From Mesostigma viride (lineage: Eukaryota > Streptophyta > Mesostigmatophyceae > Mesostigmatales > Mesostigmataceae), in contig RPFO01000587.1 in NCBI GenBank assembly GCA_009746045.1, forward strand, positions 62,001 to 126,000: a stretch of 64,000 bases of DNA, given 5' to 3'. A program made the position numbers and the translations under genes. Below are positions 531 through 63,817 of this stretch, one piece after another. Under the pieces are notes generated by a model. The model saw nothing but the letters and a program-made list of their open reading frames with translations, was not told the DNA's origin and did no database searches. How positions within the stretch are numbered: the first letter of the stretch is position 1; every line of letters starts with the position of its first letter.

Positions 531-3500
531 GTTCCCGCGCCACGGCATCGCGATGGCCGACTTGCACACGGTCCCGGATGGCGCCGCGTGGGGCCTGTGC
601 CCTCGCTCGGTTCTCAAGCGAGTGCTGGCCAAGTTGTTGACGCAGCTGGGCATGGTGCGTGCGGTCGCACACGTTGTGCTATAGCTGGGCATGGTCCGTG
701 CGGTCACCCACGTTGTACTACTATACGCAGCTGGGCATGGTAACCTTGTTTGTTGCAGATTGGCACGGTGCAGCAGCATATGTTGATAGGAATACTTAAG
801 TAGGTGGCTGGGCATGGGGTGTGCAGCAGCAAATTATCATCAAGGCAGCTGGGCACGGTTTCTTTGCTGGCGAAAATCGATGCAGCTCGGCAACATTGTG
901 TGTGCGTTCTTGAACGGAATGCAGGGCACGCCAGCAAGACGCATATCACTGGAGTATGAAACTAGCACGCCAGGTTTGCGTAGGTAATGTGCTACCATGT
1001 GTCGTTGGTGCAGTTGGACAAGGCAGCTGCTACCTACCGCAGGCGTCCCGGCCCTTGTCAATCGATATAGACGTGCCTTGGACACTATAGTGCCAGCATC
1101 AAGTCGATACGCTTTGTCCCGTCATGGGGTGGTTCCCTGATTCTGCGGTCCGCTCTCATGCGTGTGCATGGCCTGTGGCACGCCGTCCACATTTGTGCAT
1201 CATGACCGGAGGACTTGTGCATTATGACCGGAGGACTTGTGCATTATGACCGGAGGACTTGTGCATTATGACCGGAGGACTTGTGCATTATGACTGGAGG
1301 ACTTGTGCATTATGACTGGAGGACTTGTGCATTATGACTGGAGGACTTGTGCATTATGACTGGAGGACTTGTGCATTATGACTGGAGGACTTGTGCATTA
1401 TGACCGGAGGACTTGTGCATCGTGACCGGAGGACTTGTGCATTATGACTGGAGGACTTGTGCATTATGACTGGAGGACTTGTGCATTATGACTGGAGGAC
1501 TTGTGCATTATGACCGGAGGACTTGCGCATTATGATGGGAGGACTTGTGCATTATGACTTGAGGACTTGTGCATTATGACTTGAGGACTTGTGCATTGTG
1601 ACTGGAGGACTTGTGTATTATGACCGGAGGACTTGTGTATTATGACCGGAGGACTTGTGCATTATGACCGGAGGACTTGTGTATTATGACCGGAGGACTT
1701 GTGCATTATGAGTGGAAGACTTGTGCATTATGACTGGATGACTTGTGCATTATGACTGGAGGACTTGTGCATTATGACTGGAGGACTTGTGCATTATGAC
1801 TGGAGGACTTGTGCATTATGACGGGATGACTTGTGCATTATGACTGGAGGACTTGTGCATTATGACCGGAGGACTTGTGCATTATGACTGGAGGACTTGT
1901 GCATTATGACTGGAGGACTTGTTCATTATGACTGGAGGACTTGTGCATTATGACTGGATGACTTGTGCATTATGACTGGAGGACTTGTGCATTATGACTG
2001 GATGACTTGTGCATTATGACCGGAGGACTTGTGCATTATGACTGGAGGACTTGTGCATTATGACGGGAGGACTTGTGCATCGTGACCGGAAGACTTGTGC
2101 ATTATGACCGGAGGTCTTCACAAGGTGCGGCACCTTACGCCACCGGTGACTCTGCCTCATGTGCATGCCACAGTGCAGGCGGCGCGCGTCGGCTCCTCGC
2201 TTACTATTCTTGATTTTGTGCTTATGCTGGCGCTCTGCATGTGCATGGCATGGGGCACTCGTGCAGGCGGTGCGCGTCGGCACGGAGCTGGAGTTTGTGC
2301 TGCTGCGGCGTGTCATGGGGGACAGGTGGGGTTGCCATGAGGCGATGCAAGGCGTGACAGGGGACAGACAGATCTGCCTTGAGGCCTTTTGGCAGGCAAC
2401 AGGGGGCCGGTTGGAGGCTATGTGGCAGCGTGGCAGCAGCTGGAGACGTGCGACCCAGTCGTGCCGGCAGCATGGCAAGAATTTTACATTCTTCTTGCCA
2501 TCCGTGTGCTGCCTGCAGGTTGCGTCCAGGGTATGCCAATTGGCACAGCCAGCGCTCCTGGAAAATGTAGTAATGCAATGTATTACTCATGTGCGGAGTG
2601 GGACACAACAACTACTACTCCTACAATGTATTACTCCAATGTTATGCTGCAACGCAGTACTGCAAGGTAATGCACGGCGCTATTAGGCACGTCGTTGCGT
2701 CGCCCGTCGAGCGCGTGAGGGTTGCCTTCTGCGGTTGCTGGGATGGGACCCGGACCGCCGGTGAAGCCTTATGGCCGGTAAAGCTTTATGGCCGGTGAAG
2801 CCTTATCGCCGGTGAAGCCTTATGGCCGGTAAAGTCTTATGGCCGTTGAAGCTGGGTGACGCCAGGTCAGGGACATGTCCCATGCGACATCCATCCACAG
2901 GTACCCCCCTCCCGATATCCTTCACATAGGTACCGCACACCCCCTTCGTTGGCCTGTTTACGTCTTTGTGGATTCTCCTAGATGATCGAAGTGTGTGGTC
3001 TCCTAGATGATCGAAGTATGTGGTCTCCTAGGTGATCGAAGTGTGTGGTCTCCTAGATGATCGAAGTATGTGGTCTCCTAGATGATCGAAGTGTGTGGTC
3101 TCCTAGGTGATCGAAGTGTGTGGTCTCCTAGATGATCGAAGTATGTGTTCTCCTAGATGATCGAAGTGTGTGGTCTCCTAGATGATCGAAGTGTGTGGTC
3201 TCCTAGGTGATCGAAGTGTGTGGTCTCCTAGATGATCGAAGTGTGTGGTCTCCTAGATGATCGAAGTGTGTGGTATCCTAGATGATCGAAGTGTGTGGTA
3301 TCCTAGATGATCGAAGCATGTGGTCTCCTAGGTGATCGAAGTGTGTGGTCTCCTAGGTGATCGAAGTGTGTGGTCTCCTAGATGATCGAAGTGTGTGGTC
3401 TCCTAGATGATCGAAGTGTGTGGTCTCCTAGATGATCGAAGTGTGTGGTCTCCTAGATGATCGAAGTGTGTGGTCTCCTAGGTGATCGAAGTGTGTGGTC

Positions 3501-6500
3501 TCCTAGATGATCGAAGTATGTGGTCTCCTAGGTGATCGAAGTGTGTGGTCTCCTAGATGATCGAAGTGTGTGGTCTCCTAGATGATCGAAGTGTGTGGTC
3601 TCCTAGATGATCGAAGTGTGTGGTCTCCTAGATGATCGAAGTATGTGGTCTCCTAGATGATCGAAGTATGTGTTCTCCTAGATGATCGAAGTATGTGGTC
3701 TCCTAGGTGATCGGAGTGTGTGGTCTCCTAGATGATCGAAGTGTGTGGTCTCCTAGGTGATCGAAGTGTGTGGTCTCCTAGATGATCGAAGTATGTGGTC
3801 TCCTAGGTGATCGAAGTGTGTGGTCTCCTAGATGATCGAAGTGTGTGGTCTCCTAGATGATCGAAGTGTGTGGTCTCCTAGATGATCGAAGTGTGTGGTC
3901 TCCTAGGTGATCGAAGTATGCGGTCTCCTAGATGATCGGAGTATGTGGTCTCCTAGATGATCGAAGTATGTGGTCAGACTATGCATCCAGGGAACATGGT
4001 TACCCCCATTCAGTTATTGACTCCCGTTCAGTAGTTGCATTTACCGCTGCCCCCATTCGGAAAGCTTAACTGCCGCCTCATGCGCGTACCTGACCGCCTG
4101 CGTGCCTGCGCACCAGCCTGCCTACCTGCCCACCAGCCTGCCTACCTGACCGCCAACCTTCCTACCTGACTGCCTGTGTGCCTGACCACCTGCTTGTATG
4201 TGTCTGCCTGTCCGCCCGCTCCTCCTGCCAGGGAGTTTGAGCCCATCACGCACAGCATGTACTGCAGCTCTGTGGCGGTGAACGCGGCCGCGCCCGTGCT
4301 GGAGGACATTGCGGACGCGCTCAACGCGCTGGGCATCCCGTATGAGCAGGTGGGTTTCTGGTGGTGGGTTTCGGGGCAAGGGTTTCGGTGTACGACGTGC
4401 TGGGCATCCCGTACGAGCAGGTGGGTGGCTCGGCCGCATGTTACCAAGCCCATACCGAAGCATGTCCGTCACAAAGCCTATACCAAAGCATGTCGGTCAC
4501 AAAGCCTTATATGAAAGCAAGTTGTAAACCCCCAAACTACATGACCACCCACTGCGCGCGGGACAGCCCCTCACTAGAGCGCACTTTTACATGCCCCTCG
4601 TGCGCCCGGCCCCATCCCTTGCTCCTTTAGACTGTTGTACCGCACTTCATGTTACTATTTAGTGCACTTCTACTAATATTCTGTTATACTGCACACATCT
4701 GTTCTGCTCATATACCCCACGTTTGTCCAAGCTCACGCATGTGTCCTATTCCACGACACCATGCATCGCTGCCACGTATACTATAGAGCCCCCAAGTATA
4801 TTATAGAGCCCCCAAGTATACTATAGAGCCCCCCAAGTATACTATTGAGCCCCCCACGTATACTATAGAGCCCCCCATCATAGTTCGGCGGTTTCCTCCC
4901 CTGGCGGAATCCATTACTGTCCTAATATTCCCCATCGCTCCATCTTCCATGGCTGATCTCATCTCCCCTTCCCCCCCCCCCCGTCTCCCACCCACACACC
5001 CACATACCCCGACCCCAGCTCCACGCTGAGTCAGCAGCGGGGCAGTTTGAGGTGGCCATCGGCCACCTGCCCGCGCTGGAGGCGGCCGATGCGGTGCTTC
5101 TGGCCAAGGAGGCGATTCAGGCGGTGGCCATCACGCACGGGCTGGTCGCCACTTTCCTGCCCAAGTAAGGCCTACTAAAGGTTGCCGCTCAAAAGTAAAG
5201 GGTGGAGGAGGGCAATGGGGGTGAGGGTCAAGTAAGGCCCTGGTAAAGGTTGCTGTCCAAGTGAGTGGGCGGGACATGTTGACAGGGGGGCCAAGTGAGG
5301 TTGGATTTGCTTGAATGGCGAAACGTGTTGGTTCTGCAAGGCGGCACTTTGGATCTGCACGGCGAGGCAAGTCAACCCTTTGCAAGTGGTTGGACTCCAG
5401 CTTCACAACAAGTGGATGCATTCTGCCCCTGTCCTGTACGGCACCTATCTTCATGAATCGATACATTTCCTGCGCTGGTTGTCTCCTCGATACATTTCCT
5501 CGTGCTATATATGTGCAGTATATTCACCTTGTGCTATGTGTGTGCAGTGTATTCACCTCGTGCTATATATGTGCACTATATTCACCTTGTGCTATATATG
5601 TGCAGTATATTCACCTTGTGCGATATATGTGCACTATATTCACCTTGTGCTATGTATGCCCTGACGCGGCCCTCCCCTCGCCATCCCACGATCTCGCCAC
5701 GACGTGGTTCCTGTGGCCTTGCCTGGCTGTATGCCACAATGGTGTCATCTTTGTGCCACGCGGCACGTCGTCAACTTGTCCCAACCGCCCCACACCTTGC
5801 TACGTGGCGCACGGTCACCGCCATTACGCATGCCACAATACATAACACGGCCACCGCCATAACGCATGCCACGTGGCGGGCCATCGTCGTCCAGGTACCT
5901 GGAATCCGGCGCGGGGAGCGGCGCGCACATGCACCTGAGCATCTACCGACGCTCCACAAACCTATTCCCTGTCAGCGCAGAGATCGAGTCGGCAGGCCAG
6001 AGCCGAACGACCCAGTCCTCGTGCGGTCTGCTGCCCTCGCCCCTCTTCACGCCAAAGTCCGGCGTTCAGCCCAGTAGCTACTGCCGCACAGGCAGCAGTA
6101 GCAGCGACACGAGTGCGTCCGGCAGCGATGATGGCGGGGACGTGAATGGGAAGGGGCGGCCGGCGAGGGACCCGCTGGGGGAGCGGGGGCACTTCAAGTT
6201 TGGCAAGCGCAAGGTCAAGGGCCCGGAAGGAGAGGATGAGTTTGAAGGGTGGCCGGATAATTACGACGCGGGTCATGGTCATGGGTACGGGATATCGTCA
6301 GTGGCGGAGCAGTTTGTGGCGGGTCTGCTCGCGCACCTGCCTTCACTGCTGGCCATCATCGCGCCATGTTGCAACAGGTGCGTTCCAGTATTTTCCTATC
6401 TTGTATTTTTTTAAAAAAATAGGGTACGTTTGCTTGGGATAGGTACTAGCGTTTGCAAGAAGTAGCGTGCTGCAGTGGAATGAAACGATGTACCTCGCAG

Positions 6501-9500
6501 CAGGCACGTTGCGAGATGTATTGTGCAGCGAGTGTGTGTGCAAGAGTAGCTCGCAAGTTAAGCCAGGAAATTGGCATGACGTGCTTTGCGACGTGTGCTT
6601 GACTTTGGAGCAGGTACTTGCAAGTAGTGACTACCTGACGTCACAGCAGAGTTTTATGTGTGCACGCACTCAATGGTACTCATGTGACAACATATGACAT
6701 CGCACACATGGTCTTTTGAATTATGAATATACTGCTATTAATAATAATAATAATAACATTAATATACTGCTTTTAGCTTATTATCTTGGATGTCGAACTT
6801 GTTTCTGGAAACTTGGACATCAACCACCCCAGCTACGCCCGCTTCGTCCCCAGCCACTGGGCGGGCGCCTACGCCTGCTGGGGCGTGGGCAACCGCGAGG
6901 CGGCGCTGCGGCTGCACTCGTCTAACGGGCGCGACATCAACAACGTCGAGTGCAAGAGCGTGGACGGCTGCGCCAACCCGCACCTGGCGCTCGCCGCGCT
7001 GGTGGCCGCCGGCATGCGAGGGATCGCGCAGGACCTGTCGCTGCCACCCCCCGTGGGTACGTGTGTGGGCGGGCCATGTTTGCGGGCTGTTGGGGTATGT
7101 GTGTTTGCCCTCTTTGCCCCATGCAAAGGGTGTGTGTGGCTCACTGTTCGGTCACGTACCAAACTCTGCGTGCTCAGTGGTGCCACTGCCCGCGGGTATG
7201 TGTGCATGCAGTTGACGTGTGTGGGCTGCTTTTTGCCCGCGTCGTCCTGTGGGCGGGTGACGTGCCAACCCTTCCTCCCCCACCTAACAGTTTACATGCC
7301 GAGCGCCCGTGGGTACGTCTGTTTGCCCACTTTGTCACGCGCATAGGTTAAGGTTTAGCGTCCTCTCGATCCCATCGCAAATAGTGCGTGCCCAGTGCTG
7401 CCGCCGACCATGGGTGGGTGGGCGGGGGGTCATGTTCGCCCACTGGCGGTGTTGGCGGGCATGGGTCCGTGCGTTTGTTGGTTATGTGCCAACGTTTCGT
7501 CCCCCACCCAAATAAGCCGCGTGCTTCACACTAGTGTCATGTGCTGAGATTGCATATTCGCGTGCTATTAATGGACATGGAATGCATCAAGCTAGTTGCT
7601 ACCGTTGTCATGAATATCAGAAGGTCACGGTGGGCTGAAAATCTTGGCTTATGTGCCACCTCTGTTTCGTCCTGACAGTATGGGCTACCTGGGTCGTAGG
7701 GTTGTGTGTGACGTCACCATGACAAAGGTTTTTTAACACGGCGGCCAGATGGAGGGGTAGGGGGGACACGTTCATGGCCCCGTGCCAGGGTATGTGGACC
7801 CTGGCGATGTCTGCGGTTTTAGTTCAACAAAAAAAGGCGCACGGTAGGCGCACAAGGAACAGTTGATAAGCGGAACCAACAAGCTAAAGCAGCAATGGCG
7901 CGCAAGCAAGGTAGATGCAAATCATACCGGCGTGGCGGCGGTCCCGTCGTGGTGAGGAGCCACAGCGCCCCGCCGACTGACAAGAGACCCCACAGGTCTT
8001 TGACCTGACCGCTCTTCCGTCCCATCCATCCTGTTTCGCCTCGTGCCCCCTTGGCCCTCTTGTCCACGTTCTTCCTTTCCCCTCCTCCCCTATAATCCCT
8101 TCGCGTCTCCCTCTCCTTCTCCCCCCTCTCCCCCCTTCTTCTCCTTCATTCTCTTCCTTCACATCCCCCCCCCCCAATAAAAATGGTGCAGACGGTGACC
8201 CGGCGTCCCTCACCGACGCAGAGCGCGAAGAGCTGGGCATCGCGCGGCTGCCGTTGACATTGCGGGCGGCAGTGGCGGCGTTCCAGGCGGACGTCGGTTT
8301 AAGGGAGGAGCTGGGGGAGGAGCTCTGCACCGCGATTGACGCCATTCGGAAGGTGAGCGCGCCCATGCTATAATTATTAAGGGAAACGGTCATGGTCATG
8401 ATGAAGAGTAGCCCCTTGTAGCTGTGTGTATTCGCAACGTAGCGCTATGTGACGGATGCCATATGCAAGGTGAGCTGCTGGATGCTATCTGTAAGTAGCA
8501 TTTGGAAGGTGAGCTGCTGTCTACTTTCTGTATTAGCATGTGCGAGGCGGGAGCGGCCATCGGGTGTCGGTAATTAGCATGTGTGAGGGGAACGGCCGTC
8601 GGGTGTCGGTAAGTAGCATGTGCGAGGGCAGCGGCCGTCGGGTGTCGGTAAGTAGCATGAGTTGTCCATGGGTGCATGCGTGTATCCGCCACCAGCGTTA
8701 ACGCCAGTCGGAAGGTGCGCGTTTTATGGCTGTGGAGAAGTATCGCTTTGCAAGCAACCCCTATACGGTGGTGTGTAGTAGCTGTAAGCTGACTGTATGT
8801 ACAATTTTGGCGCCAGTTGGATGTTGACACCGTTCCGCTTAGGGACTCAGTCGATGGTATTGGGAAGGCCGTTGTAGCGACTGGCTGCCGTTTATAATCC
8901 CCTTTTTCTCTAATACATACGGACCTTATTTCCCCCCCCCACACACGGACAGCTGGCAGCATTCAGTTTTATATATGATGCTGTTGTTTATCCCGACAAG
9001 CATGAGCTGCGGGTGTTTGCACACAGGCCTTGCCACCTATGCATGGACACGATCCGCAAGGTGAGCTCATGAATGGGTGGTGCTGCAGACGAGTTGGGCC
9101 CAATTGTTGCATGTAAGTCTCAGTTGTGTCGCATACGCGCACGGCCGATCATCCACACGAACATGGGCATGTTCTGGCTACCCCTATGCATATCCGTCAT
9201 AACTGATCTGCATAAGGACTGACATAAGGACTACCATAGTGGCCGAAAAGAAATCGCAAACAACTGTGTTTTCAACCCAAGTCAAACCCAGTACTGTAGT
9301 TTTGCGAGGAAAGAAGGCCACGGTTCGATAGTTTTTCGAGGTATTATACCCTGTACCTCCTGCACACTGTACAGGGGCGTTATCCGAAACAATTGTCCGC
9401 GATGTAATTTTAGCCACTACGGTATTCATGCATAAAGCTTAGTATTTTAGCCACTACGGTATTCATGCATATAGCTTAGCATATTAGCCACTACGGTATT

Positions 9501-9795
9501 CATGCATATAGCTTAGCATATTAGCCAATACAGTATTCATGCATATAGCTTAGTATATTAGCCAATACGGTATACATGCATGTAGCTTAGCATATCTCTC
9601 CTACGCTCTGTGAGGTGTTTGCGCCTGGGAGCTCACTGATGCGTTTTTCATGAGTTTGTGTGGTAAGGATGACAGATACATGCTAACTTCTTCCGGCTTT
9701 TCTTGTTCCTGGCATGTGTGATGCAGGCTGAAATCGAGGCTTTTGAACACAAGTCGCATGCCGAGCAAGTGAAGGCCTTTATCGAACGCTATTGA
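531..9795 (+). CDS. NodGS: NodGS/FluG-like protein, glutamine synthetase domain (5' partial)
   Basis: Exons: 531-654, 2267-2325, 4232-4349, 5019-5164, 5895-6377, 6833-7056, 8192-8352, 9727-9795 (stop TGA). All joins are GT-AG and phase-consistent, giving about 460 residues. Signatures in order: CPRSVLKRVL, VGTELEFVLLR, YCSS, HAESAAGQFEVAIGH (ATP/glutamate site), HGLVATFLPK, GSGAHMHLSI, NSY, NREAALRL, VECKSVDGCANPHLALAA, and the plant-like C-terminus RKAEIEAF..FIERY. Plant NodGS/FluG proteins carry an N-terminal amidohydrolase domain; that part and the start codon are not seen and probably lie left of the window. Exon 5 carries an extra Ser/Gly/Asp-rich insertion of about 85 residues (about 5985-6295) before the helix VAEQFVAGLLAHLPS. 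The biochemical role of plant NodGS is uncertain; classical glutamine synthesis is not assured. A TGTAA signal lies at 10012-10016. An ATG at 553 exists but homology continues upstream of it. Confidence 0.9.
642..862. repeat. Echoes of the NodGS exon 531-654 donor junction
   Basis: The exon end and donor CAGCTGGGCATG|GTGCGTGC (643-662) recur downstream as AGCTGGGCATG|GTCCGTGC (682), CAGCTGGGCATG|GTAACC (729), a weaker TGGCTGGGCATGGGG (806) and CAGCTGGGCACG|GTTTC (845). GT is retained after three of the copies. Confidence 0.75.
1191..2115. repeat. 22-bp minisatellite, ~42 copies
   Basis: Tandem unit GGAGGACTTGTGCATTATGA plus CY, varying mainly at a C/T position. It lies in NodGS intron between exons 531-654 and 2267-2325. 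Confidence 0.97.
2164..2305. repeat. Echo of the NodGS exon 2267 acceptor junction
   Basis: The true acceptor and exon start (GTGCAG|GCGGTGCGCGTCGG, 2261-2280) is preceded 84 bp upstream by GTGCAG|GCGGCGCGCGTCGG (2173 onward), and similarity continues at lower identity to a matching TTTGTGCT. Confidence 0.75.
2757..2850. repeat. 17-bp tandem repeat, ~6 copies
   Basis: Unit GCCGGTGAAGCCTTATG with A/G and C/T variants, within a NodGS intron. Confidence 0.85.
2974..3975. repeat. 25-bp minisatellite, ~40 copies
   Basis: Unit TCTCCTAGATGATCGAAGTG plus TGTGG, almost invariant except two A/G positions (GATGATC/GGTGATC and GTGTG/GTATG). Length is 1002 bp, exactly 40 periods, inside a NodGS intron. 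Confidence 0.97.
4326..4428. repeat. Echo of the NodGS exon 4232-4349 donor
   Basis: Original GCTGGGCATCCCGTATGAGCAG|GTGGGT (4328-4355) and copy GCTGGGCATCCCGTACGAGCAG|GTGGGT (4399-4426) differ by one base, 71 bp apart. Use of the copy as donor is possible; the 71-nt gain would break the frame. Confidence 0.9.
4771..4880. repeat. ~21-bp tandem repeat, ~5 copies
   Basis: Units of the type GTATACTATAGAGCCCCCAA in the intron after NodGS exon 4232-4349. Confidence 0.85.
5158..5300. repeat. Echoes of the NodGS exon 5019-5164 donor
   Basis: Original CCCAA|GTAAGGCCTACTAAAGG (5161 onward); copies GTCAA|GTAAGGCCCTGGTAAAGG (5227), GTCCAA|GTGAGTGGG (5255) and GCCAA|GTGAGG (5290). All keep a usable GTRAG donor. 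Confidence 0.85.
5501..5658. repeat. ~30-bp tandem repeat, 5 copies
   Basis: Units such as TGCTATATATGTGCAGTATA followed by TTCACCTTG in the intron before NodGS exon 5895. Confidence 0.9.
7042..7425. repeat. Echoes of the NodGS exon 6833-7056 donor
   Basis: Original CCACCCCCCGTGG|GTACGTGTG (7044 onward). Copies: CCACTGCCCGCGG|GTATGTGTG (7183), GAGCGCCCGTGG|GTACGTCTG (7301) and a weaker GACCATGG|GTGGGTGGG (7406). The following TGGGCGGGCCATGTT is also partly repeated at about 7423. Confidence 0.8.
8336..9068. repeat. Serial echoes of the NodGS exon 8192-8352 donor
   Basis: Original GACGCCATTCGGAAG|GTGAGC. Copies: GATGCCATATGCAAG|GTGAGC (8455), GATGCTATCTGTAA (8481), CATTTGGAAG|GTGAGC (8500), AACGCCAGTCGGAAG|GTGCGC (8699) and GACACGATCCGCAAG|GTGAGC (9046). 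A 45-bp tandem repeat (8533-8658, 3 copies) sits between them. Confidence 0.85.
9411..9596. repeat. 37-bp tandem repeat, 5 copies
   Basis: Unit TAGCCACTACGGTATTCATG plus CATATAGCTTAGCATAT, in the last NodGS intron. CACTACGGTA also ends the elements at 35726 and 43110. Confidence 0.95.
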
Positions 9796-10534
9796 TGTGG
9801 GATTTCTATCACCAGAGCTCGACAGTGGGTCATGCCCTGCCAAGTCCTGAGTCTGGCGCATACCCATATCATGCCTCTGCCAATGCCCCCCATCACATAG
9901 GGTCGTTGTACTACCGTAATAGTGTCTTGCTAACACGGCAAGCTTGGTTCAACTTGGGTGCTTTGCGACCCCCAAACAGGGGTGTGCAAGTATAGCCTAG
10001 CTGGTGTTGGATGTAACATTTATTTACGTTACAGGATGTAGACACGGGTTGTCTCGCGTACATTCTGTCAAGCTTCTACGTCTTTAATAAATGAAACAAC
10101 CCAGATGAGACATGTTGCTCTCTCGTGTTCAAATGTGCATATGGGGTCTCAAAGAGGGCTGCGACCTTGTGCAGGCCCATGTAAGTAGTGAGTATTCGTG
10201 TGTCCAGCGCAGAGGCGTGTGAAGTACTATGCTAATCTCCAAAGTACAAAAATTGAATTTGAAGATTGTGCATCATGCCTCGTGACCCTAGCTGCGCCCA
10301 GGTACACATGCTGATGGGCCCAATTACACATGCACATGCTTCTAAGTCACGCATGCCCCTAAAACCCGGGCGATCAGGCGCTCCGTGAGATCGAGGCCTT
10401 AATTACGTATTCTCTCGACGATCCGGTGCCTGTAAATGTGTTCCAAGCCTAGATTTGGGGGCTCTGGACCATGGGGCAGCCTCAGTTAAACCATATTAAT
10501 TGCTTCCGGCCGGTTGGGGGATCACGGAGCACTG
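9796..10534. other. NodGS 3' flank, no gene seen
   Basis: Contains the TGTAA signal at 10012-10016 and, from about 10490, part of a dispersed repeat in minus orientation (reading ...CAGTGCTCCGTGATCCCCCAACC on the minus strand) interrupted by the palindromic element at 10535. Nothing else recognised. Confidence 0.6.
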
Positions 10535-11091
10535 AGTTAGGTTAATATTGTGCGGAAACCTTTTGCCACTTGGGCTTCTCAGGTTCCGCACAATATTACC
10601 GGCGATAACCACTCGCCGGACACTCAAGTTCACACCGGTGTGAACTTGAGTGTCCGGCGAGTGGTTATCGCCGGTAATATTGTGCGGAACCTGAGAAGCC
10701 CAAGTGGCAAAAGGTTTCCGCACAATATTAACCTAACTAAGACCTGGATCCTTGCGGGGCGCAGGTTCGAATCCACTCGGAAGCGGATTATTTGGGGAAT
10801 AATTCGTTCCGATTTGGCACCCGGCTCTAATCATATGCGCACCAAGGAGATGCTCATATTCGATCATATTCATATCGATATTTGCACCAACGAGATGCTT
10901 ATATTCGATGATATTCATGCATACGGGTGTTCCGAGCCTAGTGATTCGTCCTCGCCCCAAGAGGCTAGGTTTTAGTTAGGTTAAGCACCGGTGTGAACTT
11001 GAGTGTCCGGCGAGTGGTTATCGCCGGTAATATTGTGCGGAACCTGAGAAGCCCAAGTGGCAAAAGGTTTCCGCACAATATTAACCTAACT
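10535..11091. mobile_element. Palindromic transposable element with 102-bp terminal inverted repeats
   Basis: 10535-10738 is a perfect 204-bp palindrome centred at 10636/10637 (CACACC|GGTGTG). The right arm recurs at 10990-11091, so the whole 557 bp has perfect 102-bp inverted ends starting AGTTAGGTTAATATTGTGCG. It is flanked by a 5-bp direct repeat CACTG (10530-10534 and 11092-11096), the likely target duplication. Each arm itself contains a 15-bp inverted repeat (10543-10557 with 10584-10598). The internal part 10739-10972 ends in AGTTAGGTTAA (10973-10983), the element's own terminus, next to the third arm, so this looks like a dimer in which the second copy lost its left arm. A Pol III B-box-like GGTTCGAATCC lies at 10769-10779. 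No transposase; family not recognised. Confidence 0.9.
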
Positions 11092-11180
11092 CACTGGTCA
11101 GAGTGCTTTTAATGCCTGAGTGTCCACAGCGGGCAGGGGGCAGAGACCCCCCCTTCCCTCATGCCACAGGCATGCAATGC
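11092..11180 (-). repeat. Dispersed repeat, part split by the palindromic element
   Basis: TCAGAGTGCTTTTAATGCCTG...GCAGAGACCCC matches 11388-11430 and, inverted, 56888-56950. Together with 10490-10534 it rebuilds one copy of the family, which dates the palindromic insertion as later. Confidence 0.8.
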
Positions 11181-11432: not shown

Positions 11433-11449
11433 TTTCTCCCTCATAGGCG

Positions 11450-14900: not shown

Positions 14901-15573
14901 AAAGTGGCGGGCCGGAGTGACCCCCTCAAGGCTATGCAAGGACTCGTGAAAACTGCTGGCGTTCCAACTCAGGTAGACCACTATGGGGTGCGTAGCCCAC
15001 CCCCACCGTGAGGTGGTGCTTAGACCGCCCCTCGACGGAGGTGAAATGTGCTACCATAAGGCGTGGGGTTAGAAACTTAAGCGTGCTGAGGCTAGCAACT
15101 GCCAGCGCGGCGAACACAAAAGACCAACACCACCTTGGCCTGGTCAATGTGCCGCTGCCAGCGAAGTAAAACCGCCAGCCACCCGCCAGGCCGGATCAGT
15201 GCTCACCATGCCAAGTGGCACCGGGCGGCTATGCTCTTGAACGCCTAGAATAGATACACGATGGGCTATGCAGAAGGCAACGAGCTCTTCTACCCGATAG
15301 CTATGGCCGTCGTCTGCTAGTAATGTGCGTGCATTGAAGGTGGCAAGGGCCAAGGATGCCTAGCTGCTGGCCCACCAGGGGAGAACGGCGATGGATGATG
15401 GGGGTGGATGCGGCGGGGGGTGGAGGTGGGGGTGGAACGGGGGGAAGGGAAGCGAACGAAATAGTGCTTTTCATCGCATTTATTTTGTCCTGCAGGCGTA
15501 GGATGCGAGCCTGCCGCCTGCTCTGGGTATTCGGGGATGCTTGCGCAACGCAGAGGCGTAGAAAATCTAGCAT
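11905..15573 (-). mobile_element. Degenerate non-LTR retrotransposon (LINE) with APE-type endonuclease and reverse transcriptase
   Basis: Read 15573 to 11905 on the minus strand, in several frames broken by stops and shifts. Endonuclease start LATFNARTLL near 15345, ILGVQEHSRP near 15245, LLDANATLPVG near 14885. RT: GADHLSAELLK near 13730, AIRAMLYKKGSAADPSNYRG near 13600-13540, YIKAFDTVLWEALWAI near 13335, HGVWQGCVLSPYLF near 13175, and YADDTTLI at 12970-12947. C-terminal part RRIALIVGHLART near 12440 resembles the usual LINE post-RT motif. The minus-strand 3' end terminates in the hairpin and ATAATTTAATTT tail at 11905-11880. No intact ORF, so not autonomous. 15573 is only the first visible Met of the upstream frame; the true 5' end is not defined. 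Confidence 0.85.
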
Positions 15574-49270: not shown

Positions 49271-49303
<33 letters not shown>

Positions 49304-52300: not shown

Positions 52301-54909
52301 CGGACCCGAGCGCGGCGGCGATGGATGCCCGAGAAGACGGCAGCAGCGACAGAGGATACGGCAGTGGCAGCGGGGCTAGTGACGGAGGGGACAGCCGAGG
52401 GGTGAAAGGCGGGGACAGGCAAGGTGCTGACCGTGGCGTTGGGCGCGTGGTTGATGGTGGCGCCAGACAAGGTGTTGACAGCTGGGATGGGGAAGGCAAC
52501 GGCCACCCTTTGTCGGCGTTGGCGACGCGCCGACGCGAACTCGGGAGACTCCGAGAGCGCGCCCGGCAGAAGCTGCGGGTGGAAGATTCAAAGCTGCTGG
52601 AGCACAAGGTGAGGCTCTGACAGCGGCTGCACCAGTACGCTGGGTGGCTTGGAAGGTAACGGGGTTTGGCTTGGAAGATAATGGGGGGTTATTGCAGCTG
52701 CTGGAGCACCCGGAGGGGCTATTCAAGCTGTTGATGCACAAGGTGGGGCTACTGGGGGAGGTTCTTACCGGGGGAGGTGGGGTTCTTACTGGGCGGCGCT
52801 CTGGTCCAGGGTCATCCTGTTGCAGCCTTGTAATCCCTGTACTCCCGCGCCTGTTGCCACCTCACCTTTGTGGGTGTCTTGTTCTGCTTTCTGCCGTATC
52901 TTGCCATGCTTTGTTATGTTTTGTTTGTTGTATTTCCTAATCCATCCAATGGTTCTATTTTCATCCTGGGCCTCACCATGCTTCTATTGCAACCTCGGCT
53001 GCCTCGCCACGGCCCCCCACGGCTCGTGCAGAAAGCGGCCCACTCCACCTACATCCCCTTTCCCCGCGAGCGCCTCGAGGCGGCCGTGGACGCGGTCCCC
53101 TTATCCGCATACGATGCGGAGGACGTAACGTGCACCCGCTTCAGCCGTCCGCTGCTCTTCCTACGGTCAAGGAAACCACGGCCGGAGGGTGACGGCCACG
53201 GCAGTAGCGGCTATGAACCATCGAAGCGCGCGGGCAACCACCCATCATTGCAAAATAGTGGCGCTAGGCCTCGCTGGGACAACTCTACCTCTGAAGGGGT
53301 GGGACTCCTCGGTTCTCCCAACGCCTCCATGCACACGAGCCGCGACAACTCAAGGTACAGCGACGGTGGCCCCATGGACGAGCAGACGCTCTTCACGCCG
53401 CCGCACGCACCCGGGCTGACGCCTCTGCGTCGCACTTCTGGCATCCGGCGCGTGGAACTCCCGGTGGAGGACGCGGCACTGCTGATGGCGGCCAGAACTG
53501 GGGATGGGAGCACAGGTGCCATCGTGACGACCAGCGATGCCACAGTGACCACCAAGGCCACGGTGACCGCCGAGGCCACGGTGACCGCCGAGGCCACAGT
53601 GACCGTCGAGGCCACAGTGACCTGCGATGGCTCCGGGGCCACCCATGCTACTGTGGCCGTGACCGCCACTGTGACGACGAGAGCTACAGTGACCATGAGA
53701 GGAATGGTGGCCGCCGATGCCACGCCTGGGTTGGCGGGCAAAGCGGATGAAGAGAATGGGACATCTCGTGCGGTTCCCGGCTCTGTGCAGGAAGGGGCGG
53801 ATACGTCGCCTTGTTGGGCCAAGGATCCTGCGGGGTCGAAAGCACCCGTGCGAAGGCGGGCCAAAGTGGCCAGGGGCGACGGGGGGGAGAAAGGAGTGGG
53901 GGCCAGTCCCGGGCCCGAGGGGGTGGCAAGTTACGGTCCCGACGTGCCTCTGTCGTCTGTCACCAAACGGCCGAGGGATATGAGGCGCCAGCGCGCACCG
54001 GGTACCGCAACAACCCCGACGCGTGTGAACGATGCCAGCGGGGAGATCGGCGGAGCAGGGGCGGACTTGCAAGCGGTGGAGGGTAGTGACGGTCGCGACC
54101 TGTCGCAGGCTTCTGCCGGCATCCGCGAGGGCGACGGCAACCCTGCGTGGTCGGAAGGGGTCAAATCGCCTGGCTCTGGGGGCAGCCAGCGCAGTGTGGG
54201 ACGCAGGGCAGCGGGAGGCAGTGGTGGTTTGGAGGGTGGTAGTGTGGATGAGATCGGTTTGAGGGGTGAGGATGTGTGGGCAGGGGAAGGGGAGGAGCCT
54301 GGGATGGATCTGGGTGGGCAAGTGCCGTTGCAATGGAGCTCGGGGCAGACGGGTCCATGGGGCCGGGGGAGCAAGGGGGGCAGGAGGAGGGCATCGGCCG
54401 GGGCGACGGGTGGACCGTTTGCTCGTGGCACGTCGAGCTTGTGTTCTGCTGGCAGTCACGTGCCTGTGGTGCAGCTATGGGGTGGCCTAGAGCCTGCCGC
54501 GCGCCGACGCGTGCCGGCCGTGAGGGCTTTCGCGCCACGATGTGAGGAGGTAGTGTACGTTGCATGTGGCGGGGAGGCGTGCACGCATGAGTCTCGGGAC
54601 GCCAGGCAATCGCACCTACTACCGATAGCATGTGTGCAGCTGGTCAGCCCCATGCATGTGAGTGGCATTAAGTCGGCCACACGCAGCAGCACAAGCACCA
54701 ACCCCCTGCGCCTGGGCAAGGCATGGCGCGCTCCTTCTAGGGACAGTTTCACGCATCACCGAAATTCTGAGTGGCCGCCTGTGAGGCTCTGGCGCAAGAA
54801 ACATGCCACGGCGCGGCCTCGCACGGTCATCGGTCATGGACAGCACGGCTACGGTTGGGCTGTGGGTGCCCAGCTCAGACCCCATACCTTGCATGCAGTA
54901 TTGATGTGA
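44147..54909 (+). CDS. XRN: XRN-family 5'-3' exoribonuclease with long insertions and extended C-terminus
   Basis: Exons 44147-44248, 44455-44559, 46069-46315, 47319-47501, 48176-48693, 49661-50605, 51664-51734, 52200-52608, 53032-54909 join in phase to 1485 residues. Catalytic elements of XRN nucleases are present: MGISGFNTWM start, VDMN (Asp), CMDGPAPLTKIITQRKRR, VPGEGEVKIL (two Glu), IIGSDSDLMLLAL (two Asp), ILCGGNDYLPK (Asp), then YLQGLLWNLEMYLDG, YGWQY, and LLPRVGGREILPSALRHLM. Low-complexity Gly/Asp/Arg/Ser-rich insertions interrupt exon 5 (~48340-48610) and exon 6 (~49810-50150, 50280-50410). The last exon encodes a 626-residue tail, poorly conserved, with an ATVTAEATVT-type tandem repeat at 53530-53710; it may be longer than the true CDS if an intron was missed there. 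It would degrade 5'-monophosphate RNA; nuclear or cytoplasmic location cannot be told. Confidence 0.9.
45236..45380 (+). repeat. Dispersed repeat, second copy (short form)
   Basis: AATTTCAATGCACAAGGCTAC...ATCATCCTGAACG and GGCTCGAGCTACCATGGTCC align with 30724-30780 and 30970-31015. Located in XRN intron 2. Confidence 0.8.
45788..46095. repeat. Echo of the XRN exon 3 acceptor
   Basis: True junction GCACCAG|AAATCAGTCGTCCTCTGCATG (46062-46089) and copy GCGCCAG|AGATCGCTCGTCCTGTGCATC (45791-45818). A weaker AAGAAAAGGTCGTCTTCTGGG lies near 45915. Confidence 0.8.
46298..46492. repeat. Echoes of the XRN exon 3 donor
   Basis: Original GTGTCGTCCGCCAACG|GTGGGTG (46300-46322); copies GTGTCTTCTGCCAATG|GTGGGTG (46400-46422) and TCTCTTCTGAAAATG|GTGTATG (46471-46491). 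Confidence 0.88.
46557..47011. mobile_element. 455-bp MITE with GACCCCTTCTGAA ends in XRN intron 3
   Basis: Termini GACCCCTTCTGAAGA...CCCCGACTA and their inverted complement, about 45 bp each, flanked by TA on both sides (46555-46556, 47012-47013). Subterminal and interior repeats of TAGTCGGGGT / ACCCCGACTA. TA target and short length fit a Tc1/mariner-type non-autonomous element, but the family is not certain. Confidence 0.8.
47084..47195. repeat. AATAAT-rich microsatellite
   Basis: AATAATAATAGTAATAACAA-type trinucleotide repeats in XRN intron 3. Confidence 0.9.
47430..47800. repeat. Diverged partial copy of XRN exon 4
   Basis: Exon GGCAGCGACAGTGACTTGAT...GGCGTCTCCCGTCCG encodes IIGSDSDLMLLALASPV. 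At 47740-47790 the intron has GACAGCGACAGCCTGCGTCT...GGCACCGCCCGTC, which reads LIVDSDSLRLALAPPV. The microsatellite 47531-47722 lies between them. Confidence 0.75.
47531..47722. repeat. 9-bp TTTCCTTCC microsatellite, ~21 copies
   Basis: Highly regular TTTCCTTCC array right after the XRN exon 4 donor. Confidence 0.97.
48676..48810. repeat. Echo of the XRN exon 5 donor
   Basis: CTACCTGCCCAAG|GTGTGTGC (48681-48701) and ATCACGTGCCCAAG|GTGGGTGC (48788-48809). Confidence 0.75.
49139..49302. repeat. GGCA / GGAA / AAGT tetranucleotide tracts
   Basis: Adjacent arrays of GGCA, then ~30 copies of GGAA, then AAGT, in the XRN intron before exon 6. Confidence 0.97.
49575..49685. repeat. Echo of the XRN exon 6 acceptor
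   Basis: True ATGGACCTGGGCAG|GTGCAAGG...AGCATGTGCAAG (49647 onward); copy TTGGACCCGGGCAG|GTACTCTT...GCCGTGTGCCAG (49579 onward), 68 bp upstream. Confidence 0.75.
51021..51200. repeat. GGGA tetranucleotide tract
   Basis: About 45 copies of GGGA on +, XRN intron 6. Confidence 0.97.
51755..51872. repeat. 47-bp tandem repeat, ~2.5 copies
   Basis: Unit GTGTCGCTGGTCATGCATGT...GACGTGACTGTTGTTGTGG immediately after the XRN exon 7 donor. Confidence 0.92.
52590..52752. repeat. Echoes of the XRN exon 8 donor
   Basis: Original AAGCTGCTGGAGCACAAG|GTGAGGCT (52591-52616); copies CAGCTGCTGGAGCACCCGGAG (52695-52715) and AAGCTGTTGATGCACAAG|GTGGGGCT (52725-52750). Confidence 0.88.
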
Positions 54910-56204: not shown

Positions 56205-56270
56205 ACCTGGAATATGTGCTACATGATCTCCCAACGGAGACATGTTATAATTTAATTTAATTTTTTAATC
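56205..56270 (+). repeat. Hairpin-tail repeat copy
   Basis: ATGTGCTACATGATCTCCCA ACGGAGACATG then ATAATTTAATTT, nearly identical to the minus-strand end of the LINE at 11935-11880. Confidence 0.85.
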
Positions 56271-56289
56271 CATCCATCCATCCATGGGG

Positions 56290-57060: not shown

Positions 57061-57072
57061 AAAATTAGTTAA

Positions 57073-57968: not shown

Positions 57969-60900
57969 TTAATCCAGGTCCATGCCAGTCGGCGCCTTTG
58001 GCTCCGCATCACCCATCTCTGCGTCAGTCGCATCAGGGGCGGCTGCCGATGCCCCAGGAGCCGGCGCGGCGCCCTCCTCCATCTTCACCTCGGGCTGAGG
58101 GGCCGGCTCGGGCTTGGGCTCCACCTTTGGCTTGGGCTTGGGTGTGTTCAGAATCGGCCGGCATACCCGGTCCAGCACGTCGGCCTTCTTCTGGACGTCG
58201 TTGCACAGGAACGCGGGGGCGGATGCTAGTGGCTGCGCGGCCTGCTGCGCCTGCTTCTCGTCCAGCCACGCGGCCGCAGTCGCGCATTCATCAAGCACCT
58301 TCTTCTTCTGCTCGGCGTCAATGTGCTCGTACGCAGGGTCGGTCTCGATGGCGCGAAAGCCAGCGATCAGGTTGCGCAGGTGGGCCATGACGGCGGGCCG
58401 GCCCTCGTCTTCTGTCACACGCACCAGCAGGGGGTCGCCCATCTGGATGATGGCAACCAAGAGCCCCGATGAAGCAAGTTGATGGCATTAGAAAATCGGT
58501 AGCGACACCCAACGCGCAGCAAGGGTGCCGCGAGCAACCTGAGCTTGGCACTCGTACTCCAGGGGCATTACAAACCAACTACGTACTTGTTGAATGAAAC
58601 AAAGAAGGCGAGTATGACCCTTGAAGTGGAAGAAGAAGGAAGAGGGGGACAGGGGCGAGGGGGGGCTAAAATGGGGGAGGAAGGGAATGCAGCATCAGCC
58701 TTACATGCGCACCAGCGGCCTAGACAGTAGACACCCACCCACTGCTGCAGCTATGAGCAAACCGTAGCTGTAACTCAGGTGTAGCATGTATGAGGCTGTC
58801 TGCTTTCTTTAGCAAACACAACCATCAGCTTTCTTTAGCCTGACACCCCATGAAAGGCTCACAGCACCGCCTGTTACCTACACACCCACGGGCAACACAC
58901 CCACCAGCAACACACCCCACTACCAAAGCACACGCTATCAACCCATCTTCCTACCCTCCCCCCATCCCTTTTTGTGGAAAAGGGAAACTTCCCCTGACCC
59001 CACCCACCTTCCTCATCCCTCCCCACCCCTCCAAGTGACCAACTTAATTAACCTTCCCGCACTGGGCAGGCGTCAGCCCCCATATCTTGTCTTACTTGTC
59101 TTAGTCGATGCTGCCCCCACCCACCTTCCTCAGCTCCTCCAGCTTGTTGATGTACACGCCCTTGCTCTCGTCCTCGCCCTCCTCATACAGCCAGTCCTCC
59201 GTCTCCGTCAGCTTGCGGGAGAAGGACTCGCGCTCCGCCTCCGTCACAAACTTGTCCAGCCGGTCCGACAGCTGGCGCCACGCAGGAGGTTCCATCACAA
59301 CGACGTGACGCCACCAGCCATCGCAGCAGGAACATCCGTCACAGCGTCAATCATAGCAAACACCACATGCAATGAGCGCCGCACACAACGCCAGCTTACA
59401 AAGTCATAATGGTAGCCCCGCACGAACATCCGTCACAGCGTCAATCATAGCAAACACCACATGCAATGAGCGCCGCACACCGCGCGAGCTTACAAGTCAT
59501 AATCGTAGCCCCGCAGGACGCATGGCCGATACAAATATAGTGGCACCTGGCGAGCACAACCCGTGACGGGAAAGGATCGCCTCCCCCCCCCCCCCTTACC
59601 CTACCCTTCCCTACCCCACCCATCCCCTACCCTTTCATCTTGTACCCTCCCCCCCCCCCCCCCCCCTCACCTTGGTGCGCATGTCGTAACCCTCACCTTG
59701 GCGCGCATATCGCCCCCCTCACCCTCTACCCCACCCATCTCCTACCCTCGCCTCCTTTACCCCCCCCTCCCCCCTCACCTTGGCGCGCATGTCGTACACG
59801 TAGGCCTCCACCTCGTTCTTCTTGTCCTTGGTCTCCTCCATCACGCGGTCCTGCAGCCGCATCTCGTACTCCTTCTCGATCGCCGCCTGCCGCTCCACCT
59901 CACTCAGGGACGAGGACGTCGAGGCGATGGGCACGTCCGTCTTCCTGGTGCGCTTCTTGCGCACAACCTCCTGTTGGATGAATCAATGGATGGAAAGAGA
60001 GGGCGCCGAGGGGAAAAAAGAGGGGTGGCAATGGTTGTGAGAAAAAGAGAGGCGGAAGCTACAAGAACCAGACTTGGGAGGTGCGACCGCTTCTCGCGCG
60101 CAAGCCAATTTTCAGAAAGGGCTACAGGAGCAGAAAGACGCACATGCGCCGGTGAAGGGCAGAGGCTATAACGAACCACGTCCGGTTGGGGGGGGGGAGG
60201 ATGGGGGTTGGGGTTACCAAACACACACACAAAAAAAAAGCAAGAAAAGGGGTGGGGAGGCAAAACGAGGCAGACGCGGAGGGGAGGGAGGGGCGGAGGA
60301 CTGAAGCAACAGAGGGGTAACGAACACAAAGGGAAGGAGGGAAAACACAAAAGGGAAGCAGGGCGGACAGCAGAGGGGACGACAGGGAGGTGGGGAGAAG
60401 GGTGGGCGCACGGGTCGGCCGCGCAAAAAGCGCCTACATATAGTCTGAAATATAACCAGCTACAAAGAACTAGCCAGGCAACCTGCGCTCCACAATGCCC
60501 TCCTTGCACTCACTGCCGCCACCTCACGGTTACACCGACACGGCTATACCTACACGGTTATACTTGGGCAACCTCCTTACCGCATGGTTACGCCACGCTA
60601 AAGAGCCTCCTTGTATCCTCTTTATAGCCTGGCTACTCACCGTCGCCACCTCCATTGGCGCCGCATCCGTGGCCACAGGCGGGGCCGCTGCCGCCGCTCC
60701 CGCGTCCGCCGCCGGAGCCCCACTGGCATCCGGCACCTGCGCTCCCCCATCCTCTGCCATGGGTGAGGGGCCACTGGCGTCCGCGGCAGGTGGTGGTGGC
60801 GACGCGGCGGCCGGCTTGGCGGCGGCGGGCGCCGCTTTGGGTTTCTCAACGACCGCGTCGTATTCCTCCTCCTCGTAGACTTGGGCGGACTCGACGAGCA

Positions 60901-63817
60901 GCACACCGTGCAGGTTGAGCTTCACACGCACTTTGATCTTGGCCTTCTCGCTGCCGGCAGGAACCTTGAAGGGGCCGATCTGGGGGGGATGATGGTGCAC
61001 GGGGGAAGGGGAGGTCATGGGGTCGATTGAAGGGAGGGTTAGATGACGGAACAGGGGTGGCAGTGCCAGGGGTTGCATGTGTTTGTGTGTGTGTGCGTGT
61101 GTGTGCGTGTGTGTGCTTGAGTGTGCTTGAGTGTGTGGGGGGGGAGGGGGCGGAATCACACGAAGCGTCGAGTAAGCAGCGCCTACCAAACATACGCGCA
61201 CGGGGCCGCACAAAAAAGTGTCCATGCAACAACCACATCCATGCGACACCCGCCGCGTCGCTGCCCAACCAACACAGTAACAAGGTAATCTGGCCCATCC
61301 GATTGTGTGGCTGAGCTGTGCGGCTTAAGAATTCAGTCCGTCCAACTGACGGCCACATGTACGGACACTGTACCATTGTTTATGCGCATACCAACACCCA
61401 GATTACCAGCACACCTACCCCAAAGGCACACAGAGATATTCGTCTCTACTTGCCAACGTACCGCAAACGAGCCGATGCGGTGGTCCGGCCAGTGCGGCAG
61501 CTGCTCTGGCGTCGCATAAAACGCCTCCAAATGGAACGCCTCCTTCCTGAAGAAGGTCAGCATCTTGGTGGACGGGAACGCGCACCCCTGCGTGAACACC
61601 TCCACGCTGTCAGTGGTCGAGGAGGCCATCTTGGCGTCCTCTCCCTCGGCCTCTCCCTCCTTGGGATGCATGCTGTCGCCCTCTTCGACCGTGGGGGACG
61701 CGCCCGACCAGGCGAGACGGATCGTGAAGGGGAAAGAGTCGATGATCTGGCGGGGGGGGGGGGGGGAGACGGGGGGGGGAGGAGGCAGAGAGCAAACATG
61801 AGAGGGAAGGGGGTGGGGACGAGGAAGGGAAAGGAGTAACTGATCTGGTGGGTGGGTGGGAGGGGGAAGAGAGAAAACATGACCAGGTAAGAGGATAGGG
61901 ATGCGGAAGGGGGAGGAGTTGTTGATGACTGGTGGATGCTGGGGGGGGGGGGAGGGGAGGGGGGAGGGGAGGGGGGGGGGAGGGGAGGGGAGGGGAGGGA
62001 GGGGGAGGGGAGGGGGAGGGGAGGGGGGGGGAGGGGAGGGGGAGGGGGAGGGGGGGGAGGGAGGGAGGGGGAGGGGGAGGGGGAGGGGAGGGGGAGGGGA
62101 GGGGGAGGGGAGGGGGAGGGGAGGGGGAGGGGGAGGGAGGGGAGGGGGAGGGGGGGAGGGGGAGGGGAGGGGGAGGGGAGGGGGAGGGGAGGGGAGGGAG
62201 GGGAGGGGAGGGGAGGGGGAGGGGGAGGGGAGGGAGGGGGGGAGGGGAGGGGAGAGGGGAGGGGAGGGGAGGGGAGGGGGAGGGGAGGGGAGGGGAGGGA
62301 GGGGAGGGGAGGGGGAGGGGGAGGGGGAGGAGGAGGGGGAGGGGGAGGCGGAGGGGGAGGGGAAGGGGGAGGCGGAGGCGGAGGGGGAGGGGGAGGCGGG
62401 GGGGGAGGGGGGCATGAGTGGAGAGATGAAAAACTCGCCATTAGGGCCTGAATTTGGCGACCATATCCGATGCCCCACCCACCCCCTACTCCCTACAATA
62501 CACACCCACTCTCAACAAGCTACCCTACCCACCCCCTACACCCCTACCCCACCCACCACGACGATCACTACCCCCCCACCCCCCCTCCGATCTCGCTACA
62601 CTCTACACCCTCACCCCCTCAAACTCGCTACACTCTGCACAACCCACCTCAAACTCGCGGACTTTGAACGCGGGCGACAGCATGGCGGCCTGCAGCGCGC
62701 ACCCCCTGGCCACACTCTCGCTGCTGTTCATCGTGCGCTGTGGCGGCCGCCCGAAGAAGTCCTCCACCAGCTTGACCAGCGCGGGGATGCGCGTGCTCGA
62801 CCCGACCAGCTCCACGCTCGACACCTGCTCCTTGGTGAGGCCCGACTGTTCCAGCGCGCGCTGGAGCGGGCCGACCACGCGCTGGAGAACAGGCTGCGCG
62901 AGCTGCTCGAACAAGTCCCGGGTGATCAGGCTACGGAAATCCAGATCGGGGGTCAGCGACTCCACGTTCAGGGGACCCTCCGCGTTGGCCGAGAGGATCT
63001 TCTTGAGCTTCTCGCACGCCGCTAGGAGACGCAGCATAGCGCGCGGCTGCCCGCTTACGTCCGTCTTGTGCTTCTCCTTGATCTCCGCCACAAAGTGGTC
63101 CACGAGCGCCTTGTCAAAGTCCCGCCCGCCCAGGCTGTCGTCAAACGCAGATGACAGGATCTTGACCTTGCCCTTTTGGAACGCGGCCACGCACACCTGG
63201 AGCGAGGCGTGGCCCACGTCCACAAAGACCACGTTCACGGGATCCTTCTCGGGGAGGTCTGTCTTGAAGATGCCGTACCCCAGCGCGGTGGCAGTCGTCT
63301 CGTGCAGGAGCCGCAGCACGCTAATCCCGGCGATCGCGGCCGCGTCCAGCAGGTCCCGCCGTTGCGCGTCGGTGAAGTACACGGGGCAGCCGAGCACGAA
63401 GTCGGTGATCGCGTTGCCCTGGTCCTTCTCTGCGATCGCCTTGAGGTTGCCCAGAAGCATGGCGAGGATCTTGGCGGGCGTGAACGCGCGCGTTTCCCCT
63501 AGGTACTGGACGACAACCTCAGGGACACCCCCAGGGCCCTCGCGGACTTGGAAGGGGAGGAGGGGGAGCTCTTTTTGGAGCATCGGGTCGTTGAACTTGC
63601 GCCCTAGCAGCCGCTTGATGTTGCAGATGGTGTTCTTCGGGTTCATCGTCTGGCCCGTCGCCGCGTGGTTGCCGAGAAAGCGCTGCTTCTCGGTGAACGC
63701 GACCATAGAGGGCGTCTCCCGTTTCGACTCGTCGTTGAGGACGACATCGATGCCCTTGCGACGCGCTAGAGCCACCACACTGTTGTCATTGCCGATGTCC
63801 AGGCCGACGACGCTCAT
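57969..63817 (-). CDS. HSP110: Hsp110-type chaperone (HSP70-14/15-like), complete
   Basis: Six minus-strand exons: 63817-62648, 61746-61462, 60979-60641, 59970-59779, 59271-59125, 58442-57969, all phase 0, 868 residues. Exon 1 encodes the whole nucleotide-binding domain: MSVVGLDIGNDNSVVALARR, NDESKRETPSMVAF, MNPKNTICNIKRLLGR, HETTATALGYGIFKT, FVDVGHASLQV, SLGGRDFDKAL, VELVGSSTRIPAL and RTMNSSESVARGCALQ. Exon 2 gives the substrate-binding beta domain (SFPFTIRLAWSG). Exon 3 carries RVKLNLHGVLLVESA and then an Ala/Pro/Asp-rich acidic loop typical of Hsp110. Exons 4-6 give the alpha-helical lid (MRLQDRVMEETKDKKNEVEAYVYDMR, EDWLYEEGEDESKGVY). Hsp110 proteins act as nucleotide-exchange factors and holdases for Hsp70. 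No KDEL-like retention signal is seen (ends GMDLD), so cytosolic/nuclear is expected. Convergent with XRN. Confidence 0.97.
59331..59518. repeat. ~98-bp direct duplication in Hsp110 intron 4
   Basis: ACATCCGTCACAGCGTCAAT...GAGCGCCGCACAC occurs at 59331 and 59429, with matching AAGTCATAATnGTAGCCCCG after each. Confidence 0.92.
59664..59800. repeat. Two echoes of the Hsp110 exon 4 donor
   Basis: Minus-strand original TACGACATGCGCGCCAAG|GTGAGG; copies TACGACATGCGCACCAAG|GTGAGG (59689-59666) and CGATATGCGCGCCAAG|GTGAGG (59712-59691). All three donors are intact. Confidence 0.92.
61712..61936. repeat. Two echoes of the Hsp110 exon 2 acceptor
   Basis: Minus-strand original CCAG|ATCATCGACTCTTTCCCCTTC (61750 downward). 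Copies: CCAG|ATCAGTTACTCCTTTCCCTTC (61849 downward) and CCAG|TCATCAACAACTCCTCCCCC (61933 downward). Confidence 0.85.
61940..62410. repeat. ~470-bp polypurine GGGGA tract in Hsp110 intron 1
   Basis: Nearly pure purine on + (GGGGAGGGGA, with GGCGGA near the end); polypyrimidine on the transcribed-sense strand of Hsp110. Candidate G-quadruplex or triplex DNA. Long Gly/Arg/Glu and Pro/Ser frames here are artefacts. Confidence 0.97.
62589..62672. repeat. Echo of the Hsp110 exon 1 donor
   Basis: Minus-strand original CCGCGAGTTTGAG|GTGGGTT; copy GTAGCGAGTTTGAG|GGGGTG (62632-62614, donor GT lost) and a shorter GTAGCGAGAT near 62597. Confidence 0.6.

Follow-up and report, generated by a model that had tools for sequence, protein, structure and literature searches.

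The introns of the streptophyte Mesostigma viride carry diverged copies of their own exon–intron junctions, and the source of these copies is probably recurrent local direct duplication, largely tandem, acting across the introns and followed by decay. In the window (the whole stretch of 64,000 nucleotides of contig RPFO01000587.1 that was analysed), the junction matched its own intron better than it matched other introns at 21 of 58 junctions (p ≤ 0.01; 29 introns in five genes), much as a sequence-only reading of this DNA had suggested in putting the number of junctions with intronic copies at about twenty. The excess was seen again on a second scaffold, the copies are in direct orientation, fresh tandem units cross several junctions and donors are affected more often than acceptors.

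Gene models and sequence sets

Exons in the window were curated by hand because ab initio gene finding over-predicts, returning one chain per strand for the window as a whole. The curated set comprises 29 introns (seven in NodGS, 13 in RPA1, two in a methyltransferase gene, two in XRN and five in Hsp110), all 29 of which are GT–AG and in frame; it covers NodGS from 531 onwards and XRN as far as 48693, limits past which the models are uncertain or leave the window. The Hsp110 model (868 amino acids, six exons, minus strand) and the RPA1 model (619 amino acids, fourteen exons, minus strand) are each identical over their full length to a published Mesvir1 protein, a match that covers these two genes only, with the NodGS, methyltransferase and XRN models being the product of hand curation. 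The Mesvir1 proteins are probably those of strain CCAC 1140 (PMC7027972). An early draft of RPA1 (611 amino acids) aligned across residues 4 to 594 with the solved RPA 70-kDa subunit 8rk2. Some proposed exons were dropped, one of which (23774–23827) is itself a copy.

The replication set also comprises 29 introns, drawn from three multi-exon genes on a second scaffold of the M. viride assembly that were named by eye as encoding an ankyrin-repeat kinase, a TBL1-like WD40 protein and a coiled-coil protein. These introns were obtained with a gene finder trained on the window, followed by curation by judgement rather than by comparison with published proteins. Where the frame permitted, predicted pieces resembling copies or repeats were discarded (13400–13450, 9639–9671, 45245–45253, 46880, 47466–47825, 48894–49309, 17863–18211 and 18933–19074), and one exon of the set has a GC donor. 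The M. viride NIES-296 assembly, from which the window probably comes, was built from PacBio, Illumina and optical-map data and comprises 442 Mb in 2363 scaffolds, with a mean intron length of 1141.9 bp and repeats accounting for 30.1% of intron space (PMC6947507).

Junction copies within introns

Each junction was represented by 25 exonic and 10 intronic bases (35 bp) and aligned to its own intron, with significance taken as p ≤ 0.01 and with 200 equal-length random stretches of other introns, 200 dinucleotide shuffles and the reverse complement serving as controls. When shuffles were used in place of other introns, 20/58 junctions in the window were significant. The reverse-complement control gave 2/58, and one of these two junctions, the acceptor of Hsp110 intron 3, belongs to the 21 as well. 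These three controls rule out chance or base composition as the source of the copies, and similarity through the splice consensus alone is countered by the use of other introns in the same sense. The significant junctions of the window comprise 15/29 donors and 6/29 acceptors. In the replication set, 16/58 junctions were significant (donors 11/29, acceptors 5/29), with 1/58 in the reverse complement. With both sets taken together, copies are found at 26/58 donors (22 of them spanning the junction) and 11/58 acceptors (seven spanning; Fisher p = 0.005); when the donor test was repeated on all 58 introns together, 25 donors were significant as against the 26 from the separate tests.

The copies had been described as straddling the boundary, as lying 16 to 700 bp away, as mostly keeping the splice dinucleotide and as affecting five unrelated genes, and each of these descriptions is borne out. 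Of the 21 significant alignments in the window, 18 extend four bases or more into both exon and intron, the shifts measured there run from 16 to 708 bp (with several copies at some junctions), GT is kept in 20 of the 24 donor copies mapped in the two sets and altered in the other four, and at least one junction is significant in each of NodGS, RPA1, methyltransferase, XRN and Hsp110. The list of copies leaves aside shift-0 self-matches (Hsp110 intron 1 and intron 4 donors) and two overlapping repeats. Preservation ranges from tandem units that are still identical to similarity that can barely be seen, in keeping with the earlier proposal that copying has been repeated over time.

On the plus strand, 640–859 holds the donor of NodGS intron 1 (last exon base 654) together with copies at 657–720, 725–741, 746–771, 807–859 and 845–859 with shifts of 39, 85, 112, 162 and 203 bp; TRF identifies a period of 39 at 644–720, p takes its smallest possible value (0.005), the identity is 0.82 and the unit identity 0.87, and this donor also fits the tandem-unit test. 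The acceptor of the same intron (exon start 2267) has a copy at 2158–2193, shifted by 86 bp, in which the CAG is kept. At the intron 3 donor (exon end 4349; 4324–4426), the source at 4324–4355 and the copy at 4395–4426 are identical at 30 of 32 positions, lying 71 bp apart in a spaced rather than tandem arrangement. The intron 6 donor (exon end 7056) has three diverged copies, at 7181–7228, 7297–7390 and 7381–7452 (shifts 139, 255 and 358), and the donor of intron 7 (exon end 8352) has four, at 8455–8488, 8499–8514, 8690–8721 and 9043–9066, intron 7 also containing a 39-bp array.

In RPA1, on the minus strand, the end of exon 5 and its donor (exon end 23898) are matched by a 92-bp copy at 23726–23817 (76/92, shift 124). 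Older copies are quasi-regularly spaced, as seen for those of the intron 7 donor (exon end 22093; 21735–22048), with shifts of 65, 145, 213 and 352, and for those of the intron 4 acceptor (exon start 24075; 24152–24367), with shifts of 88, 178 and 286. A perfect 16-bp tandem duplication crosses the methyltransferase intron 2 donor (exon end 28495; 28488–28521, plus strand), and the acceptor of that intron together with the start of exon 3 (exon start 29287) has a copy at 29057–29120, shifted by 202 bp, with the AG kept. The Hsp110 gene, on the minus strand, has two copies of its intron 1 acceptor (exon start 61746) within 61824–62006 (shifts 100 and 187), copies of its intron 4 donor (exon end 59779) at 59611–59723 and a copy of its intron 5 donor (exon end 59125) at 58994–59022 (27/30 identical, shift 118). 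The copies of the intron 4 donor lie beside a 26-bp array, and their best-matching segment is identical at 27 of 28 bases, which is the single mismatch in 28 that had been reported.

In XRN, on the plus strand, the intron 1 donor (exon end 46315) is copied twice, at 46398–46427 and 46468–46494. The copy of the intron 2 donor at 47746–47835 is unusually deep, extending 65 bases into the exon; this donor is significant in the test on the window and absent from the 25 of the pooled rerun. Further along the gene (52560–52745), a 45-bp in-frame cassette (52698–52742) with its own acceptor and donor comes after an exon end, CTGCTGGAGCACAAG/GTGAGG, of which it looks to be a copy; the cassette is a candidate new exon.

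Local duplication as the probable source, and competing explanations

The repeat content of the introns has the direct and nearby orientation expected of tandem duplication. Pairs of 11-mers no more than 200 bp apart, with words of more than six copies and simple words excluded and overlapping words counted separately, number 849 direct versus 11 inverted in the window's introns; six direct pairs are present in 8,323 bp of exons. TRF arrays account for 12,312 of 49,296 intron bp (25%) and occur in 44/58 introns, and outside them the direct excess is modest (33 direct versus 13 inverted partners among 1143 tiles). Fresh tandem units that straddle a junction measure 16 to 61 bp, and include the 16-bp unit in the methyltransferase gene, units of 46 bp (two copies) and 40 bp (twelve copies) in the TBL1-like gene and a 60-bp unit (three copies) in the coiled-coil gene. 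Intron 10 of the TBL1-like gene (stretch L015, 7351–7875) opens with an array in which the 40-bp unit is made up of the exon end plus the donor; eleven extra copies are present, of which ten keep an intact CAG/GTACGT and the last has GA. Among the 21 donor copies that are 85% identical or better, a simple tandem unit at the present shift fits only five and the others are spaced; either later insertions have driven them apart or some of the copying may have been spaced from the outset.

Several further repeats were observed. In a stretch upstream of the window (L002, minus strand, ~1080–1520), a whole exon encoding VGGRRILTPRDNSVRPMMEVVRAAVFSMLQ is present twice, ~310 bp apart and by eye unchanged, with a third diverged piece between the two; judged by eye, this is a recent duplication of the whole exon including both splice sites. 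A stretch of a chaperonin-like gene (assigned by family match) is present in two assembled copies, L016 and L017, that diverge by 1.6% (50 mismatches over 3055 aligned bases) and are either alleles or the product of a recent duplication; among the 16 gaps between them are a 7-bp tandem duplication that is perfect and an 18-bp one that is nearly so, and, judged from exon positions, one intron is ~3 kb longer in one of the two. Within the window, broken frames at 12000–15700 (minus strand) look reverse-transcriptase-like by eye, with similar ones in several other stretches, and appear to belong to a common retroelement, and three near-identical arms of ~105–114 bp, direct and inverted, are found at 10527–11099.

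The sequence-only reading had proposed a mechanism that duplicates junction-spanning DNA. Recurrent copying is supported, but the junction as the object of that copying is not, given a similar rate in intron interiors and a simulation blind to junctions that comes near the data in one of five settings. When 30-bp sliding segments were compared with their own intron, matches on the donor side of the window were found for 2/164 segments at least 30 bp inside the exon, 28/58 at the junction, 9/58 just inside the intron and 249/830 in the interior; the corresponding figures for the replication set are 2/121, 20/58, 19/58 and 86/260. Combined, junction and interior stand at 48/116 and 335/1090 (Fisher p = 0.02), and on the acceptor side the junction, at 14/116, lies below the interior, at 267/1090 (p = 0.002), both p values being optimistic because the segments overlap and the replication interior was sampled more sparsely (offsets 60–300). 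Acceptor-side segments at least 30 bp inside the exon matched in 5/164 and 4/121 cases (9/285 combined). Self-similarity away from junctions is thus about as high as at junctions, and junctions are not clearly special as targets of copying; the counts are compatible with a modest donor excess over the intron interior.

Under the explanation we favour, short-range direct duplication would act throughout introns and make them grow, with units of the fresh sizes given above across junctions and one whole-exon unit near 310 bp. A unit wholly inside an exon would lengthen the exon and alter the protein, and would be purged, whilst one straddling the border would leave the exon intact and add a second exon edge and splice site within the intron. 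Since exon-internal units would be lost and straddling units harmless to the protein, any exon sequence found in introns should be border sequence, a step of reasoning backed by the rarity of exon-interior copies (4/285 and 9/285 on the donor and acceptor sides). Repeated duplication of a straddling unit would generate a minisatellite starting at the exon, which point mutation, indels and insertions would then turn into spaced, diverged echoes. The exon side would decay slowly because selection holds the exon, leaving border copies visible for longer than copies of intron within intron. Copied acceptors, and copies near acceptors, would be tolerated less well than copied donors; the donor bias could reflect the rules of splicing, or what the branch site and pyrimidine tract require in the vicinity of acceptors.

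Simulations (eight, six and five settings over three rounds) were exploratory and unfitted and used assumed unit lengths. One setting that is blind to junctions, with units of 12–70 bp, insertions of foreign DNA and an acceptance of 0.3 for duplicated acceptors, approaches most of the observed rates: donors.36 (observed.45), acceptors.09 (.19), spanning 17/20 (22/26), far exon.04 (.01), intron edge.29 (.24) and interior.26 (.31). Every other setting misses one or more features. The tandem-unit share was.44–.78 in the tandem simulations and.46 of 13 in the nearest setting, as against the 5/21 observed.

Copying might instead be tied to splice sites or transcription, with breakage or template switching at borders favouring donor-spanning DNA, a proposal that we regard as improbable. 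The donor bias and the donor peak in the window speak for it, as do some copies of at least 90% identity that stop 2–7 bases into the intron (NodGS introns 1 and 3). The replication set, however, has no such peak. The observed donor/interior ratio, about 1.35–1.45, is higher than most simulation settings produce: donor junctions did not rise above the interior in the eight settings of the first round (ratio at most 1.0), and the other four settings of the last round gave donors of.18–.36, interiors of.19–.47 and ratios of 0.8–1.2. Only the nearest setting, itself blind to junctions, reaches the observed value (1.4, or.36/.26). That 5′ splice sites attract or favour duplication, with nearly half of donors duplicated and acceptor duplicates mostly eliminated, is likewise doubtful. 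Duplicate donors would on that proposal be tolerated because M. viride splicing picks the exon-proximal donor and, if it were true, donors would compete in tens of thousands of natural experiments across the genome (extrapolating from 26/58 donors).

It is similarly unlikely that the copies arose, not by tandem duplication, but as dispersed short templated insertions made during break repair, in which end joining takes filler from nearby DNA. Such an origin would suit the 16/21 high-identity donor copies that fail the tandem-unit test, most of them short and spaced, as exemplified by the 32 bp copied 71 bp away in NodGS intron 3. Filler copying in end joining is expected in both orientations, an expectation at odds with the scarcity of inverted copies (11 against 849 direct). 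Spaced-insertion simulations also give too many far-exon copies (.10–.18) and too few that span the junction (13/24, 9/13 and 3/12, as against 22/26 observed).

Very improbable is the retention of copies by selection as functional decoy or back-up splice sites: 13/24 mapped donor copies reach the 10th percentile score of real donors or better, compared with 6% of 3390 GTs in introns, but high scores are expected of copies of donors in any case, mismatches fall in all codon positions (33/208, 30/209 and 47/218), GT is changed in 4/24 and the published RPA1 and Hsp110 protein models use the exon-proximal site at all 12 copy-bearing junctions (eight donors and four acceptors; p ≤ 0.01). Coding selection on the copies was also set aside, the differences between codon positions (p = 0.047) being about what a constrained source would give. 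The 13 high-scoring copies do imply, as far as sequence scores go, that strong duplicate donors exist. Duplicated splice sites have been the subject of classic in vitro work.

Relation to known systems and significance

Local direct duplication across borders has points in common with several known systems. Introner elements, like the M. viride copies, add splice-site-bearing DNA to genes (PMC9860276). They share a sequence common to many introns, whereas the copies described here are specific to their own intron (29 introns per set), and in this one respect the earlier claim that the two differ is upheld; introners also insert whole introns, an event not seen in the M. viride sets. Minisatellites share with the copies their direct, short-period, local arrays and decay, and multi-copy arrays are present here, but differ in that the first unit in M. 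viride is partly coding and contains a splice site.

Tandem duplication is an established source of splice sites, as set out in a review (PMC3443670) and a report of Drosophila cases (PMC2891723). In the intron gain described there, an exonic segment is doubled and a new intron arises between the copies, whereas the M. viride unit straddles an existing border. Nor do the copies follow the Rogers model, in which an exonic AGGT duplicate supplies both ends of an intron: they resemble one border only and mostly include intronic bases. The closest precedent is the potato RdRp gene, where tandem duplication likewise crossed an intron–exon boundary with its splice signals (Ma, Lan and Niu 2016, PMC4974935). 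That is a single, acceptor-side case that made a new intron, whilst in M. viride many junctions are involved, most of them donors, and neither a new intron nor a new exon has been demonstrated. No report of a genome with junction-crossing duplication at a large share of donors was found among the matches listed, mainly open-access literature. Junction-crossing duplication has been published as a single case in potato; here, in one genome and on two scaffolds, copies are present at 26/58 donors.

If local duplication of this kind proves to be genome-wide, it would provide a concrete route by which introns lengthen and, for work on how splice sites are chosen, a natural set of duplicated donors that range in age; it may also feed intron gain and change at the edges of exons. 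The bias of donors over acceptors offers a testable quantity.
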